A stretch of 37,332 bases of DNA, from positions 1 through 37,332 of IMG/VR virus record IMGVR_UViG_3300021964_006699, one strand, 5' to 3'. The position numbers and the translations under genes are program-made. A model generated the notes under the pieces. That model saw only the letters and a program-made list of their open reading frames with translations, was not told the origin of the DNA and searched no databases. This DNA is from a virus. This document shows positions 29,360-37,226 of this stretch, piece after piece. Every line of letters begins with the position of its first letter. Within the stretch, counting starts at the first letter, position 1.

Positions 29360-29926
29360 CTAAAACAGTTTGTTTACAGAACTTTCAATAGCATTGTGAG
29401 TTTGGCCTTTCCACAAATGACGTACAGGTAATTCTAATAGGTTGTTAGGACAAGGCTGTGTGAGCCAACGATGATGAGGTGTCCAAGGTCGTTCACCACT
29501 TTGTTCTCCTTCAAGTTGTCCACCTTTCCACGAACTGACTCCTACTACTAATCTCCAGGATTTTGGACCTCTACCTTGTGCTAGTTCTCTTAGAATATAT
29601 TCACTGCTGGTAACACACACCGTGTTAGTTACCCACCGTGTGTTTGATGCTAAACAGTCTGGAGTATGAATAAAGTGTAGGCCATCGGTTTCAATAGGGC
29701 CGCCAATGTAAACACTTTCTTCTGAAGGATAGTCAATTCCAAATGTTGCGGCTATATTACCAACATTTACTTCTGTGCTGGGTTTGTTAACAACAAGACC
29801 CCATGCACCATTAGCATGATGCTCGCACAATAATACAACACTCTGTGCAAAGAATGTGCTGTTGGCTATTGGCTGAGCAATCAGTAACTGTCCTTGAAGA
29901 CTAGATTGTAGTTCCACGTTTTGCAT
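29360..29926 (-). CDS. YqgE/AlgH family protein
   Basis: 188 residues, full length for the family (DUF179/UPF0301). LQGQLLIAQPIANSTFFAQSV (about 10-30), GAWGLVVNKPS (about 40-50), YIGGPIETDGLHFIHT (about 72-87) and WRLVVGVSSWKGGQLEGE (about 123-140) match the YqgE pattern. Its cellular role is poorly defined (AlgH was linked to alginate expression). It is a host-type gene carried by the phage, behind its own late promoter and with GGAG before the start. Confidence 0.88.
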   Translation of the reverse strand: MQNVELQSSLQGQLLIAQPIANSTFFAQSVVLLCEHHANGAWGLVVNKPSTEVNVGNIAATFGIDYPSEESVYIGGPIETDGLHFIHTPDCLASNTRWVTNTVCVTSSEYILRELAQGRGPKSWRLVVGVSSWKGGQLEGEQSGERPWTPHHRWLTQPCPNNLLELPVRHLWKGQTHNAIESSVNKLF

Positions 29927-29946
29927 TACACTCCAATTGTATATGT

Positions 29947-29954
29947 GTATTTAT
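29947..29954 (-). promoter_or_regulatory. Late promoter ATAAATAC for the YqgE gene
   Basis: Reads ATAAATAC leftward, 20 bases before the ATG at 29926, with GGAG in the resulting leader. Exact copies of this octamer also precede the genes at 31384 and 32995. Confidence 0.6.
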
Positions 29955-29955
29955 T

Positions 29956-30585
29956 TTATAGTGTAAGTGTGCTGTGGTCGCCTACTGATGTTGTTCCACG
30001 CAAGAAGTAATTAAATGCAACACAGTATCGATCATTTGGATTTAGATTCTTTGTTACACTGTGTTCTACGTGACTTGGAAAAATCACAATGTCGCCAGTG
30101 CGTGGTTGATAATTCCATTCATCACCGGTGCTTGCTGAGAATCCTATAAACTCAATAAAGGTAGTTCTAGGAAATACATTATTCCATTGCAGTTGTTTGT
30201 GTAGTATAAGTCTGCCACTATCGTGTTCACTACTCAAATATATGATACCACTGATCATACTGTTCACATGATCGTGTCTTTGTGCCCAGTCACCTGTGTT
30301 ATGCTTTACGCCCCAAGTGTTTAGAATATCTAGTTTGTGCTTTGAGTGATTGACTTGCAGTGTTCTAAACACATAATTATTGACATGTTCGTCAACTATC
30401 TCTCGCAGTTCTTTGTGAGCAGGACTTTCAAGCAAATGTTTGTTTGTAGTTCCCCAACCGTTGCCTGCTGGAAATCTATGCCACTCTTCATTTTTTACAG
30501 TTTCAAGTATGTCATTGTTGATGTCTGTGTGTCCAAGATAAACTGGTACACCAAAAAGATCCTGTGATTGTGATTGTTGATTCAT
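29956..30585 (-). CDS. 2OG-Fe(II) oxygenase, TIGR02466-like
   Basis: 209 residues. FGVPVYLGH at the N terminus is the typical start of this family. RHDHVNSMISGIIYL (103-117) provides His104 or His106 as iron ligands, VIFPSHVEHSV (167-177) provides His175, and Arg186 precedes FNYF. AGGAG lies six bases before the ATG. It is divergent to a second member at 30675. Substrate unknown. Confidence 0.84.
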   Translation of the reverse strand: MNQQSQSQDLFGVPVYLGHTDINNDILETVKNEEWHRFPAGNGWGTTNKHLLESPAHKELREIVDEHVNNYVFRTLQVNHSKHKLDILNTWGVKHNTGDWAQRHDHVNSMISGIIYLSSEHDSGRLILHKQLQWNNVFPRTTFIEFIGFSASTGDEWNYQPRTGDIVIFPSHVEHSVTKNLNPNDRYCVAFNYFLRGTTSVGDHSTLTL

Positions 30586-30632
30586 TGTTTCTCCTATCGC
30601 TAGGCAACTGCCTTACTAGTAATTATCTTGCT

Positions 30633-30656
30633 CGCATTTAACGTATTGCAAATGCG
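30633..30656. repeat. Inverted repeat between divergent oxygenase genes
   Basis: CGCATTT (30633-30639) and AAATGCG (30650-30656) are exact reverse complements with a ten-base spacer. A smaller AGGC-AACT-GCCT hairpin lies just to the left. The 89-base gap has TATAAC at 30662-30667 just before the rightward ATG. The repeat could be an operator for the divergent pair. Confidence 0.4.
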
Positions 30657-30674
30657 GTTTCTATAACTATTAGT

Positions 30675-31226
30675 ATGCATATTAGAACAGTATTCCCTAC
30701 ACCAATCGGATTTGAAAAACTAGAAGGTGATTGGTTTGAACTTGCAAACAGTCAATCATTTAACAATGAGTTCTTTGGTCAAACACCAGGAGATCTTCAC
30801 ACACAAGAAGAATGGAAAGACCTTACAACCAAACTAACAGAAGCCGCAAACAAATACAATAACGAAATCGGAAACACAACTCCGGTGCATATTTCAAACA
30901 TGTGGCTAAACCGATATTATCAATACAACAGCATACACCCACACTTTCATTCAAACTGTTTGTTTAGTTGTGTGATGTATATACAAAGCGATACCGGAAC
31001 AGTTTTTTATAGACCACAGCCTATACAATTTCAAGCCAGTGAATACAGTGATAGAGGTTTCTTTTATGATGACTTTACTGCCCAGCCTGAAACTAATGGT
31101 GTTGTGTTCTTTCCAGCAAATATTAGACACACCAGTATACCAAGCAGTACACTTAGATTAACTATTAGTGCTAATTTTAACTGTGACAGTTATGGTAATA
31201 CACACAGTCTTAATCGTTTAGATTAA
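30675..31226 (+). CDS. 2OG-Fe(II) oxygenase, TIGR02466-like
   Basis: 183 residues. VFPTPIGF opens the protein, as in this family. HPHFHSNCLFSCVMYI (88-103) supplies a His pair, VVFFPANIRHTS (143-154) supplies His152, and Arg161 lies in LRLTISANFN. No Shine-Dalgarno sequence is seen; TATAAC eight bases upstream suggests a leaderless or near-leaderless message. Its stop overlaps the convergent small gene by three bases. Confidence 0.84.
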   Translation: MHIRTVFPTPIGFEKLEGDWFELANSQSFNNEFFGQTPGDLHTQEEWKDLTTKLTEAANKYNNEIGNTTPVHISNMWLNRYYQYNSIHPHFHSNCLFSCVMYIQSDTGTVFYRPQPIQFQASEYSDRGFFYDDFTAQPETNGVVFFPANIRHTSIPSSTLRLTISANFNCDSYGNTHSLNRLD

Positions 31227-31384
31227 CGTGCTTTTTTAAGTTGGATAGTAACTTGCTTTTTGCCTTTGTTTTCAGTTCTTGCTCTAGCAATGTTTAATTC
31301 TGCTGTGTCAACACGAATCTTTTGACCTGCAAATTCTCCAGGTTTAATTTTGCCCTTGTTGTCCACTGATTTTGATTCTGCCAT
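31223..31384 (-). CDS. Small basic protein, 53 residues
   Basis: ATG at 31384, stop at 31223-31225. The sequence begins MAESKSVDNKGKIKPGEF and ends KKQVTIQLKKAR; it is rich in Lys and Arg. AAGGAG lies seven bases before the start and a late promoter (31406-31413) just upstream, which supports a real gene although it is short. Not recognised; nucleic-acid binding is possible from its charge. Confidence 0.78.
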   Translation of the reverse strand: MAESKSVDNKGKIKPGEFAGQKIRVDTAELNIARARTENKGKKQVTIQLKKAR

Positions 31385-31405
31385 TGTATGCTCCTTGTTG
31401 TAGCA

Positions 31406-31413
31406 GTATTTAT
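31406..31413 (-). promoter_or_regulatory. Late promoter ATAAATAC for the 53-residue gene
   Basis: ATAAATAC read leftward, 21 bases before the ATG at 31384. It overlaps the stop of the upstream hydroxylase gene by four bases. Confidence 0.6.
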
Positions 31414-32072
31414 TCTAACCACCCGGGTTTAAATTGATTGACCACTGTTCTAAACACTGCGGCTGTACACAGTTTGGCTATTTCCAATTTGTCCCAACGA
31501 CTACGCATGTATTTGTTAGGAGGTATACCCAGTGTGCTACGATGTAGATCTATTATGAATACTAATCTGTTTGTTTGTGCATTTGACCAAGCAATGTGTA
31601 CACCCGAGTTGTCAAATCCAAAAACACCATCACGCCAACCTATGCGTTGACCCATTATCCATAATCCCATATCGCCCGGAGGAACAATCAAAGGTATATG
31701 ACAGCGTATGAATTTGCAGTAGCGATTTTCTTCATCACCGTTGTGTAGAGGAATTTTAGCACGAGGTTTCAGTATGCTGTAACTGGCCACATTGCAGTCA
31801 TCACCAAACGCACTTACCAACCGGTGTGCTGTGGGATAGTTCTTTTTGATTACGCTTTCATCATCTGCCCACTGCTTTTTGTAGAGAACTCCTAGAGGCA
31901 CCCAACCATTAATGTCATGCCAATATTTTTGTTCATCACCTTTTACACGTTGTTCTTGTTGCTGTAGAACATCAGGATGAACCTTTACAAAATCGTCACG
32001 GAGTTTTGGTGCAAGTTCTAGGAATTGCTGTGCATAGGGAATTTCATTGTGTCGCCATACATACTTACGCAT
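31410..32072 (-). CDS. Aspartyl/asparaginyl beta-hydroxylase-type oxygenase
   Basis: 220 residues from the ATG at 32072. A longer frame reaches 32111 but its start lies inside a hairpin (32097-32127). SYSILKPRAKIPLHNGDEEN (98-116) and FDNSGVHIAWSNAQTNRLVF (153-172) are the two motif blocks of the PF05118 family, giving His110, His159 and Arg169. LWIMGQRIGWRDG lies between. It probably hydroxylates a protein or peptide residue; target unknown. The late-type element places +1 exactly on the ATG and no ribosome site is visible. Confidence 0.84.
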   Translation of the reverse strand: MRKYVWRHNEIPYAQQFLELAPKLRDDFVKVHPDVLQQQEQRVKGDEQKYWHDINGWVPLGVLYKKQWADDESVIKKNYPTAHRLVSAFGDDCNVASYSILKPRAKIPLHNGDEENRYCKFIRCHIPLIVPPGDMGLWIMGQRIGWRDGVFGFDNSGVHIAWSNAQTNRLVFIIDLHRSTLGIPPNKYMRSRWDKLEIAKLCTAAVFRTVVNQFKPGWLE

Positions 32073-32076
32073 ACGT

Positions 32077-32084
32077 ATATTTAA
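32077..32084 (-). promoter_or_regulatory. Late-type promoter TTAAATAT, leaderless spacing
   Basis: Reads TTAAATAT leftward. Taking TTAAATA as -12 to -6, +1 is at 32072, the A of the hydroxylase ATG, the same geometry as at 6609-6622. Confidence 0.45.
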
Positions 32085-32096
32085 GTGATTGTGTGC

Positions 32097-32127
32097 TGGG
32101 GGCATACACAAATGATATATGCCCCCA
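32097..32127 (-). terminator. Strong hairpin after the 64-residue gene
   Basis: TGGGGGCATA (32097-32106) pairs perfectly with TATGCCCCCA (32118-32127) around an 11-base loop. It lies just past the stop of the gene at 32133. No T-tract follows on either strand, so it may stabilise the 3' end or need a factor rather than act as a simple terminator. Confidence 0.45.
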
Positions 32128-33824: not shown

Positions 33825-34229
33825 TTAGTCTGCTCTGCTGTCCATGTAAGCAGTAAAGCCATAGTTCTTAAACACTTGGGCACATGCTTGGGCACCCACT
33901 TCCTTAACGTCCATGCTCTGTCCTCTGTGCTCTGAAGGGTTCCAAATTGAGTATGCACCACTGTAGTCTTTCTCAATGCCCGCGGCTTTGAATGCCTTGC
34001 CCAACTTGGTGTTACCCTTAACACCATATATCTTAGTGCTGGCAAAGCCACAGTACATAGGCTCACCATACTGGTTGCCTCCAGTCTTTGCATTCCAATC
34101 ATCTAGGAATGATTGTGCCGCAATCTGTGCCGCACTCTTGGCTTCTGCTAGGATGTTACGGATTGCTTCTGCATCGTATTGGTTAATGTCTTGTGCTACT
34201 GCACCTGCTGTTTGTGTTGCTGTAAACAT
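33825..34229 (-). CDS. Conserved phage protein of unknown function
   Basis: 134 residues from the ATG at 34229, set by AAGGAGCG just upstream; a longer frame to 34274 runs into the promoter. An Ala-rich helical N-terminal half is followed by YSIWNPSEHRGQSMDVKEVG then AQACAQVFKNYGFTAYMDSR, a pattern familiar from cyanophage and other marine phage proteins without known function. Strong early promoter and terminator of its own. Confidence 0.75.
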   Translation of the reverse strand: MFTATQTAGAVAQDINQYDAEAIRNILAEAKSAAQIAAQSFLDDWNAKTGGNQYGEPMYCGFASTKIYGVKGNTKLGKAFKAAGIEKDYSGAYSIWNPSEHRGQSMDVKEVGAQACAQVFKNYGFTAYMDSRAD

Positions 34230-34261
34230 ATATTCGCTCCTTTGTTTAAGTTTGTATATAC

Positions 34262-34295: not shown

Positions 34296-34626
34296 AAAGT
34301 TCACTAAATCCAAAACTATCTACCTTGTACTTTACTGTGCCAAATAGGATATGATCTCCTACACTTGTGCTACGGTGTCCATACTCTACACCTTCTCGTA
34401 CATGTAGAGGTTGCATTACTGTGATGTCTTCACTGTAGTCACCATTGTCATGCTCTTCGCCGTCCCATTCAATAACCGGACCTTTGCTCCAACTACCCTC
34501 AATGTTCTGTGTGCGTCTGTATGCATACTCAAGTGCATCACTGCCTGTACGCTCGCCCACTTCCACAAATGCTACTGTGCGAGGAGTATCTTCAAATGCT
34601 CCGTGAATTACTACTGCTTGTGCCAT
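34294..34626 (-). CDS. Conserved phage protein with RSTSVGD motif
   Basis: 110 residues. ALEYAYRRTQNIEGSWSKG (about 31-49) and HRSTSVGDHILFG then YKVDSFGF (about 84-107) form a pattern seen in small phage and plasmid proteins of unknown function. AAGGAGCG precedes the ATG. It has its own early promoter, so it is expressed soon after infection, possibly in host takeover; that is inference. Confidence 0.72.
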   Translation of the reverse strand: MAQAVVIHGAFEDTPRTVAFVEVGERTGSDALEYAYRRTQNIEGSWSKGPVIEWDGEEHDNGDYSEDITVMQPLHVREGVEYGHRSTSVGDHILFGTVKYKVDSFGFSEL

Positions 34627-34658
34627 GTGTTACGCTCCTTATTAATTACTATACTTAC

Positions 34659-34700: not shown

Positions 34701-35339
34701 TTATTTTTGGAATGTGTGTCCGCCTATGATTGCTGTTGTGGTCTTCTCTGCGGCCCAGTTTGGTAGCACAATGTTGTGGGCATAATACCACAGTGCTCCC
34801 TGGGTATTGTCATTAACACGATATGAACCATATCCAAGTGTCCATATAGCAATCTCTACTGATTGTCTCCAAGCCTGTGCGTTCAACTCAATCAGTTCAC
34901 CCGTACGCTCTAGGTTGGCCCATATGATGTCCTTCTTGCCATCGCAGTACCATGAGAACTGGCAACGATGCTTGATGGGATAGTACACAGGCTCTAGGTT
35001 GGGATCCTGTTTGGTCTTCCACGATTCTCTAACAGGTCCTTGGTACACAACTTCACAGTAGGTGTTTGGAAAACGATCGCTTTCAACCCTGTTGCGTGTG
35101 ACATTGGCTACCGCGGCCTTGCCTTCCACTGATTCCGCTCGTGCTTCAAAGTAGATGTTCTCTGCTAGGCAGATCATTTCTCTGTGTTTGCTGTTAGGGA
35201 TCTTTGCTTCGTTTACTTCTTGGAATACTATTGTCTTGGCTTGATCAGTTAGTTCTGCGGCGTGTGGAAAACTCAGTTTCTCCGCGGCGTTGGCCTGTGT
35301 TGCAATCAGCATTGCTGTTGCTAGTAGTAACTTCTTCAT
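34701..35339 (-). CDS. SleB-type cell-wall hydrolase with signal peptide
   Basis: 212 residues from the ATG at 35339 (GCGAGGA lies just before it; the frame's upstream Met is in the leader). MKKLLLATAMLIATQANA is a Sec signal peptide with cleavage before AEK. CLAENIYFEARAES then VEGKAAVANVTRNRV is the Hydrolase_2/SleB catalytic block with its glutamate, and CEVVYQ plus CQFSWYCDG are the usual downstream cysteines. It probably cuts peptidoglycan from the periplasm. Unusually for a lysis enzyme, it has an early-type promoter. Confidence 0.88.
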   Translation of the reverse strand: MKKLLLATAMLIATQANAAEKLSFPHAAELTDQAKTIVFQEVNEAKIPNSKHREMICLAENIYFEARAESVEGKAAVANVTRNRVESDRFPNTYCEVVYQGPVRESWKTKQDPNLEPVYYPIKHRCQFSWYCDGKKDIIWANLERTGELIELNAQAWRQSVEIAIWTLGYGSYRVNDNTQGALWYYAHNIVLPNWAAEKTTTAIIGGHTFQK

Positions 35340-35382
35340 TTTGGTCCTCGCTTCCATAATATTTAAAGTTGTTTATAGTATT

Positions 35383-35413: not shown

Positions 35414-35438
35414 AAAAAAAAGCCCCGTAAAATGGGGC
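35414..35438 (-). terminator. Rho-independent terminator
   Basis: Leftward GCCCC-ATTTTAC-GGGGC followed by eight T. It ends the transcript of the AAA ATPase gene together with its structured 3' region. Confidence 0.9.
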
Positions 35439-35575
35439 ATAAAAGGTGAACCCTAGTACACGGAGCGAGGATGTGTACTAGGGTTCTGTTGTGAAAGTCA
35501 CACACGGAGCGAGGATGTGTATGACCTTCTGTTAACGCATGTACCCGTGATAGGCTACTTTGAGCGAGGGTAAGA
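35439..35575 (-). ncRNA. Putative 3'UTR regulatory RNA with repeated anti-ribosome-site loops
   Basis: Leftward order: CCCTCGCTC (35570-35562), then a hairpin (35494-35528) and a 14-bp perfect hairpin (35448-35486), both with the same loop ATCCTCGCTCC, then the terminator. The loop is antisense to GGAGCGAGGAT; the ATPase leader has GGAGCGAGCAT and neighbours have AGCGAGGA or GGAGCGA as ribosome sites. It may be released as a small RNA that blocks early translation. Read the other way, the loops show GGA motifs, so the active strand is not proven. Confidence 0.55.
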
Positions 35576-36616
35576 TTAAGCCTTCATCACTGTGGTACTT
35601 GCGTAATCCCTCCAGTCGGTAGGGAAACTTGTTGCTAGGTCTGCAATCTTAAGCACTGTACGTAAACTTAGTTCACGCAGTCTAGCCTTGTTCTCGTCGA
35701 TGAATTCAATTACATCATCTTTACGTTCTTGTGGCATGTTGTAGTCATCCAGCATACCATCTCTAACAATCTGTTTGATTCGTAACATCTTCTCACGCTC
35801 TCCATCAATGGTCAAGTCCACATAGTGACAACGTGACTCAAGTGCTTCAAGGTGATCCTTCAACTTCTTGCTTCGCACGTTCTCGAACTTAATATTAGTT
35901 ATGAAGATCGCAGAACCCTTGAACTCAAAACGATCCGGAATACCTTCGCTACGCAGTAGACGCGAGTCAGTGTTCCACGAAATGTAACGCTTCTTGCTAG
36001 TGTCCAATGCGGCCTTAAGAATGTTTAGCGAAAGGTCATCTAGCAGTACTGAGTCACAGTCATCAAACACAACTACGTTTTTAGGATCTGAGTACTTGTA
36101 CAGTTTAGCATAAAGACCAATTGCACTCATAGCACCCTTTACAACTTCGTGCTTGCGATTACCGCCACCGATGTCTTCAAACACTGCATCCTTTTCCAGT
36201 TGCTGTTCTACACCGTAACTCTTACCAACACCCGGAGGTCCTGACACAATCATTGCTCGAATGTCACCTTGCTTTGCGGCACGTGTCATGTCGTCTAGGA
36301 TTTTAAAACGTTTACCAATACGGTCCATGATCTGCTCGTCGCTTTCGCTGTTACGTGCTTCCTTCTTAGCCGCTTGCTGTTTTACTGAGTCGAAGTTTGA
36401 ATCCACAATCTCATAGTCCTGTGGCTTCTCAATTCGTATACGTATACTACGTTCTGGAAAGCCTGGCTGTGCGCCGCCATCAACAGTAACGTAGTTGCCG
36501 TTCTTGCCTTCTTTGAAATGTTCGATCAACGGAAACTTAAGACCTGCAACTGATACATCGTTGCCACGGATCTTGTAACTGCCTTCGTTGATTTGTATTA
36601 ATGCTGTTTTGCTCAT
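35576..36616 (-). CDS. AAA family ATPase
   Basis: 346 residues. Walker A GPPGVGKS (126-133), Walker B VVVFDDCD (181-188), sensor-1 region FITNIKF (238-244) and a candidate Arg finger near Arg229. The first 95 residues form a separate N-terminal domain (ending in KKEARNSESDEQ). It resembles single-ATPase-domain proteins in marine T4-like phages, of unknown task. Its leader CAGCGAGGAGCGAG holds two overlapping ribosome-like motifs. Confidence 0.85.
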   Translation of the reverse strand: MSKTALIQINEGSYKIRGNDVSVAGLKFPLIEHFKEGKNGNYVTVDGGAQPGFPERSIRIRIEKPQDYEIVDSNFDSVKQQAAKKEARNSESDEQIMDRIGKRFKILDDMTRAAKQGDIRAMIVSGPPGVGKSYGVEQQLEKDAVFEDIGGGNRKHEVVKGAMSAIGLYAKLYKYSDPKNVVVFDDCDSVLLDDLSLNILKAALDTSKKRYISWNTDSRLLRSEGIPDRFEFKGSAIFITNIKFENVRSKKLKDHLEALESRCHYVDLTIDGEREKMLRIKQIVRDGMLDDYNMPQERKDDVIEFIDENKARLRELSLRTVLKIADLATSFPTDWRDYASTTVMKA

Positions 36617-36656
36617 ATGCTCGCTCCTCGCTGTTAATTAATTGTTAACTGTATAC

Positions 36657-36685
36657 AGTATACTATCGATACATGCATGTGTCAA
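36657..36685 (-). promoter_or_regulatory. Early promoter TTGACA-17-TATACT
   Basis: TTGACA at 36680-36685 and TATACT at 36657-36662, read leftward, for the AAA ATPase gene. Confidence 0.82.
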
Positions 36686-36997: not shown

Positions 36998-37193
36998 TTA
37001 GCACCTCATTTCTTACAAGAATAATAGCACCAAATACTACCATTGTCAAGCCTACGCCTGCTACCATTAGCATCTCGCCAATTGTGTTAGCAGTTTCCAT
37101 GCAAGCACCATCACAGTCATTTGCACTTCCTGCCATCGCCATCAACCCACCAAATACTAGCAGGGCGGCAACTGTGTTAATAATTGTTTTCAT
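36990..37193 (-). CDS. Small two-helix membrane protein
   Basis: 67 residues. A first hydrophobic segment (about 5-23, could act as a signal), a short loop with two cysteines (NDCDGACMET) and a second hydrophobic segment (about 41-60). GCGAGGA lies a few bases before the ATG. It heads a three-gene unit with its own early promoter. Not recognised; membrane location is clear, role is not. Confidence 0.78.
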   Translation of the reverse strand: MKTIINTVAALLVFGGLMAMAGSANDCDGACMETANTIGEMLMVAGVGLTMVVFGAIILVRNEVLNG

Positions 37194-37226
37194 TTGTTCC
37201 TCGCTTTGTTAATTTGTTATAATACT

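Follow-up and report, generated by a model that had tools for sequence, protein, structure and literature searches.

We propose that an RNA with repeated anti-Shine-Dalgarno loops, either released from the 3′ end of a phage ATPase mRNA or acting within it, probably silences a regulon of early genes whose ribosome sites carry a matching tag. The structure of this element, its conservation, its exact complementarity to the tagged ribosome sites, and the joint change of loops and ribosome sites between clades are established at the level of sequence. The window, i.e., the whole stretch of DNA that was analysed, is the 37,332-nt IMG/VR virus record IMGVR_UViG_3300021964_006699.

The element and its host transcript

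The rightward part of the window carries T4-type replication genes, namely those of a single-strand binding protein, a UvsX-like recombinase, helicases and a primase. Its final 3.5 kb consists of leftward genes, including that of a 346-aa ATPase. Other leftward genes, at 29360-32111(-), encode an AlgH-like protein (PF02622), a 2OG-Fe(II) oxygenase and an aspartyl/asparaginyl hydroxylase-like protein. Gene starts were assigned by simple rules. The features of the ATPase transcript, in its direction of reading, are as follows:

36657-36685, minus strand: sigma70-type promoter of the ATPase transcript, TTGACA-17-TATACT; no comparable candidate from there to the hairpins
35576-36616, minus strand: AAA-type ATPase gene (phrog_1250, T4 NrdC.10-like), the host transcript of the element
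35553-35582, minus strand: stop-codon-spanning hairpin of the ATPase gene; its loop holds the third anti-ribosome-site motif, CCCTCGCTC (CCCUCGCUC), at 35562-35570
35493-35529, minus strand: anti-ribosome-site hairpin 1, 13 pairs (two G-U), loop AUCCUCGCUCC at 35506-35516
35448-35486, minus strand: anti-ribosome-site hairpin 2, 14 perfect pairs, loop AUCCUCGCUCC at 35462-35472
35414-35438, minus strand: intrinsic terminator GCCCCauuuuacGGGGC, stem 35438-35422, U-tail to 35414; end of the transcript

The initial annotation had described two hairpins with an identical 11-base loop on unlike stems, followed by a strong terminator; both observations were confirmed on the minus strand, with the terminator stem at 35438-35422(-) followed by its U-tail. 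Its 14 perfect pairs for hairpin 2 also stand, but hairpin 1, given as 12 positions with two mismatches, forms 13 pairs of which two are G-U wobbles. The two positions are wobbles only if the RNA runs leftward; in a rightward RNA they would be A-C mismatches, which speaks for the leftward strand as the RNA strand. Folding of the leftward RNA gives a z-score of -7.3, and none of 200 shuffles is as stable; the value for the rightward strand is -5.3. The third motif reported nearby is likewise present, but calling it unpaired needs correction, as it occupies the loop of the stop-codon-spanning hairpin of the ATPase gene. This hairpin recurs in relatives (GAGCCTCTT/AAGGGGCTC in L004 and GAGCCTCAT/ATGGGGTTC in L005), where it has nine pairs and one compensatory change. 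The distance from the stop codon to the loops of the element hairpins is 6-65 nt, and 108 nt for the second copy in the window.

Between the ATPase promoter and the element, a consensus scan found no promoter scoring above 9/12, and the sole weak 9/12 match lies inside the ATPase gene. Since no promoter of its own was found, the element likely originates from the 3′UTR, although a consensus scan is not able to exclude such a promoter; the 3′UTR origin put forward earlier fits this result. That is, the element lies where a 3′UTR-derived RNA is expected, between a stop codon and a terminator and with no promoter of its own detected.

Five leaders of the window have ribosome sites that match the loops, as previously described:

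37198-37205, minus strand: ribosome site AGCGAGGA of the gene starting at 37193; duplex -14.5 kcal/mol
36620-36627, minus strand: ribosome site GGAGCGAG of the ATPase gene, whose leader reads GGAGCGAGCAT; duplex -14.9 kcal/mol
35345-35352, minus strand: ribosome site AGCGAGGA of the cell-wall-hydrolase gene starting at 35339; duplex -16.0 kcal/mol
34633-34638, minus strand: ribosome site GGAGCG of the gene starting at 34626; duplex -10.4 kcal/mol
34234-34240, minus strand: ribosome site GGAGCGA of the gene starting at 34229; duplex -12.6 kcal/mol

The loop/leader duplexes are thus predicted at -10.4 to -16.0 kcal/mol. These five are the only tagged genes in the window, and the one starting at 34626 is complementary over six bases only. 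Within the window alone, GGAGCGAG with at most one mismatch occurs 9 times against 6.9 expected, which is not above chance; the significance of the motif there rests on position, structure and relatives.

Conservation of the loops on changing stems

The loci of relatives were retrieved via similarity of the ATPase protein, not via the motif. Loci fetched by pattern are biased towards an invariant loop, and the positional, covariation and co-change counts given here use protein-fetched loci only. The sense motif UCGCUCC lies within 1.5 kb 3′ of the ATPase gene in 72 of 75 IMG/VR loci, and occurs upstream 7 times in 244 kb. These 75 loci are the members of clade A (82-90% identity) and clade B (58-63% identity), together with L060 and L061, that have enough downstream sequence. 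All genomes bearing the element are metagenomic.

In clade A, locus L003 has one hairpin with a loop identical to AUCCUCGCUCC on another stem, whereas in L004 and L006-L008 the loop AUUCGCUCC sits on 14 pairs whose sequence is unrelated, and in L005 the stop-spanning loop alone remains. L089, which was found by pattern, has a loop identical to AUCCUCGCUCC and a stem with a G-U exchange. The contig of L004, from the same clade as the window, also carries a glutamine riboswitch aptamer (RF01739, 50.1 bits, L004:8513-8560).

In clade B, small genes separate the ATPase gene from the element, which lies 3′ of them and consists of a variable outer stem, an internal loop, a CCG/CGG inner stem and the 9-nt loop AUUCGCUCC, followed by a terminator. 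Counted over 32 distinct sequences, changes on both sides of the outer stem occupy 57 cells. Shuffles gave 20.6, with none of 500 reaching 57, and sliding the stem by 1-3 columns gave at most 23. In the same 32 sequences, the loop and inner stem show hardly any variation. The initial annotation had predicted that relatives would show covarying stems and an invariant loop matching their own early ribosome sites, and this is what the protein-fetched relatives show. The clade B core is found in at least 120 IMG/VR stretches. The gene directly 5′ of the clade B element (L036:5622-5894 and homologues) encodes a small winged-helix protein (PF14090, phrog_4973), possibly a regulator.

Several genomes carry a second copy of the element, with a different stem that starts at the stop codon of another gene. 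In G014, G015, G012 and G020 (e.g., G015:43150-43190(+)), the second loop copy lies 6-7 nt past the stop codon of a conserved protein of ~100 aa, MAT.KKFAVAGVSTL..., which has no family match, and its stem is unrelated to the one after the ATPase gene. In G017, a 400-kb jumbo contig with a T4-type capsid gene, two tandem hairpins with AUUCGCUCC loops follow the ATPase stop codon, the first motif 19 nt past it, in the same layout as in the window.

As some copies, such as those of G017, belong to the terminator itself, the hairpins might be ordinary terminators or 3′ stabilizing structures whose anti-Shine-Dalgarno loops arose by chance or duplication. This reading is extremely unlikely, given the invariant loop on covarying stems, the position kept in 72 of 75 loci, and the change of loops together with ribosome sites described below.

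Tagged ribosome sites and their change with the loops

Among the triplets that follow GGAG at ribosome-site positions of 16 contigs (including two near-duplicates), CGA ranks first, with 124 of 829 occurrences; AAA is next, with 61. In G001 and G005, every GGAGCGA is a ribosome site except one, which is the hairpin read in reverse. Each large contig has about 6-12 tagged genes, clustered around the ATPase gene and mostly on the same strand; PHROGs and Pfam assign no function to most of them. A TTGACA/TATAAT-like promoter lies just 5′ of 93 of 106 tagged genes, compared with 550 of 1971 others (p = 8e-36), as expected for early genes read by the host polymerase. Leaders with 7-nt complementarity to the main loop number 4-13 per contig, against 0-1 such sites inside genes, and shuffles that keep the Shine-Dalgarno core give means of 0.5-3.2. 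Pairing with the element would offer a direct reason for the puzzling conserved CGA after GGAG in these ribosome sites.

The ATPase gene itself bears a tagged ribosome site in 12 of the contigs examined, and the element lies 3′ of that site in the same transcript direction. Both facts are consistent with loops that act in cis only, on the ribosome site of their own mRNA, the site shared by the other genes having another cause. We consider this unlikely: it accounts neither for some 6-12 separately promoted genes that keep the exact complementary word, nor for the change of their word along with the loop, nor for the second loop copy behind a different gene in several genomes.

Another reading takes GGAGCGA as the double-stranded DNA site of a phage regulator, placed 3′ of early promoters and inverted behind the operon. 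Antisense copies would then be expected, because the two orientations of a DNA site are equivalent, yet the motif lies at Shine-Dalgarno spacing from start codons and includes the Shine-Dalgarno core, and the copy in the element is part of a loop whose stem shows RNA-type covariation. A DNA site is therefore highly improbable, and we return to pairing between RNA loops and ribosome sites.

If the loops pair with the ribosome sites, the two should change together. L060 has no GGAGCGA ribosome sites; its ribosome sites read GAGGGCA, a word found elsewhere in its 30 kb only twice, in antisense, in the hairpins after the ATPase gene. A second fetch with the L060 ATPase yielded clade C, with 17 distinct loci. 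The ribosome sites of clade C comprise 71 GAGGGCA and 1 GGAGCGA, and after its ATPase genes there are 26 TGCCCTC (25 of them in loops) and 0 TCGCTCC. In clades A and B, the corresponding numbers are 1 GAGGGCA versus 200 GGAGCGA at ribosome sites, and 1 TGCCCTC versus 52 TCGCTCC after the ATPase gene. The loop core GCCCUC is carried by 34 different clade C hairpins. Tagged ribosome sites and loops are both missing from clade D, L061 and the isolate PA5oct. The initial annotation had regarded loops that mismatch the ribosome sites of their own genome as evidence against its proposal; the opposite was found, in that clade C has changed both together. In G028 (L061), which likewise lacks tag and loops, several genes have in common a long leader, ACACTAACACAACAAGGAGCA, that comes with a promoter, possibly another leader code.

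In the ATPase tree, which has modest support at several forks, clades A, C and D are each recovered as a single group, with D branching next to C and L061 nested in B. With this topology, the joint states require one switch and two joint absences. The switch to GAGGGCA is thus a single event in the tree, and the many contigs that show it are not independent. Even so, the joint change of loops and ribosome sites is the pattern expected of base-pairing partners, and base-pairing appears to be the best reading of it.

The same comparison bears on two further alternatives. Certain phage small RNAs target host mRNAs, e.g., PreS on dnaN, and the loops could similarly silence host mRNAs or ribosomal RNA containing GGAGCGA, the phage ribosome sites being merely similar. 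This is very unlikely, as phage ribosome sites are enriched in the complementary word, which changes from clade to clade in step with the loop. Secondly, the initial annotation had noted that the opposite strand would show AGGAUGU in its loops, close to the CsrA/RsmA binding consensus. A rightward RNA acting as a CsrA/RsmA decoy would make use of the GGA in this loop. In the relatives, the reverse-complement loops read GGAGCGAAU in clade B and CGAGGGCACA in clade C and do not retain the binding core, and a leftward RNA agrees better with both the terminator and the wobble pairs. We give this reading almost no credence. Judged as a CsrA/RsmA-type RNA, which keeps GGA-core loops on the transcribed strand, the element was rejected as well, since clade C lacks the core and the predicted transcribed strand is the opposite one.

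Proposed mechanism and known systems

The preferred reading, silencing by anti-Shine-Dalgarno loops, would operate as follows. At its 3′ end, which probably becomes a small RNA by processing, the ATPase mRNA would expose two or three such loops. These would pair with the extended ribosome sites of the tagged early genes, that of the ATPase included, through the words GGAGCGA/AGCGAGG in the window, GGAGCGA(A) in clade B and GAGGGCA in clade C, and so would block ribosome loading on the tagged mRNAs. As the ATPase transcript builds up, early translation would be shut off simultaneously and under autoregulation. Pairing could also stabilize or activate its targets in place of repressing them, and the element may act within the mRNA, with no separate small RNA.

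More broadly, we lean, if only somewhat, towards a private tag/anti-tag code in hundreds of uncultured T4-type phages, in which one multi-loop RNA would silence an early regulon with extended Shine-Dalgarno sites, through an exchangeable word, and so do the job of RegB and RegA. If true, this would be a naturally evolved, re-programmable translation switch, the RNA counterpart of T4 RegB, and the early-to-late translation switch of uncultured T4-type phages would become testable with simple reporters.

The element occurs in at least 100 environmental phage contigs and is absent from Rfam and from the isolate phages searched. At the Rfam gathering score, only tRNAs and one glutamine riboswitch were matched in six sources, leaving the element unmatched, and DNA similarity between the window or clade B element and isolate phages gave nothing relevant. 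By the capsid protein of one clade B contig, the closest isolates are Sinorhizobium phage Phosso (72%) and PA5oct (66%), in neither of which the element was found. The clade B covariance model gave one match only, with E = 0.38, in a search of Phosso, PA5oct, Vibrio 2.275.O, GAP32 and Melnitz. PA5oct has an RNA-Seq-supported putative long non-coding RNA (L380:1061-1679), located some 2 kb upstream of the gene for its ATPase homologue. Exact matches to the clade B core number 36 in 84,980 bacterial and archaeal genomes and look like chance: none has flanking stem arms, and nearly all are in GC-rich DNA. Matches to GGAATTCGCTCCTC outside the clade were also mostly chance. A literature search found no account of the element.

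The closest known kind is that of the alphaproteobacterial ar14 RNAs (RF02344; NfeR1 of Sinorhizobium meliloti; "cuckoo"), of which the element is not a member. The ar14 RNA has three hairpins with the same anti-Shine-Dalgarno motif in each unpaired region and unlike stems, and in a reporter assay NfeR1 silenced ntrB via ribosome-site occlusion, with redundant motifs (PMC10746234). The element resembles it in having repeated identical anti-Shine-Dalgarno loops on unlike stems, followed by a terminator. Aligned end to end with the ar14 model, however, the window element reaches 29.5 bits where the gathering score is 58.8, and no match to the model was obtained for the clade B element. The ultraconserved ar14 motif is CCUCCUCCC, in place of which the element has the loop UCCUCGCUCC; none of its loops, whether AUCCUCGCUCC, AUUCGCUCC or UGCCCUC, equals the ar14 motif. 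Unlike ar14, the element is encoded by phages, in the 3′UTR of a protein gene, and corresponds to a private class of ribosome sites.

In T4, RegB cuts GGAG in early ribosome sites, its own included, and RegA serves a similar end (PMC3014915). The element would likewise inactivate early mRNAs at GGAG ribosome sites, but RegB and RegA are proteins and the element is an RNA. Searches for RegB and RegA (PF10715, PF01818), both of which find the T4 proteins, found neither in ten contigs of clades A and B, which are possibly incomplete; that the element replaces them in these phages is offered as a suggestion only.

The c4 RNA of P1/P7 blocks the ribosome site of the ant mRNA via complementary sequences that are likely in loops (PMC12197685). 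As proposed for the element, it is a phage RNA acting at a ribosome site, but it has one target, belongs to other phages and involves no shared class of ribosome sites. We know of no repeated loops in c4 RNA.

Bacterial 3′UTR-derived small RNAs likewise lie between a stop codon and the terminator of the gene, with no evident promoter of their own; the predicted targets of the element are instead the phage's own early leaders. Anti-Shine-Dalgarno small RNAs are already known in bacteria. New here are the occurrence in phages, a ribosome-site word that is both extended and private, and the fact that this word and the loops are exchanged together.
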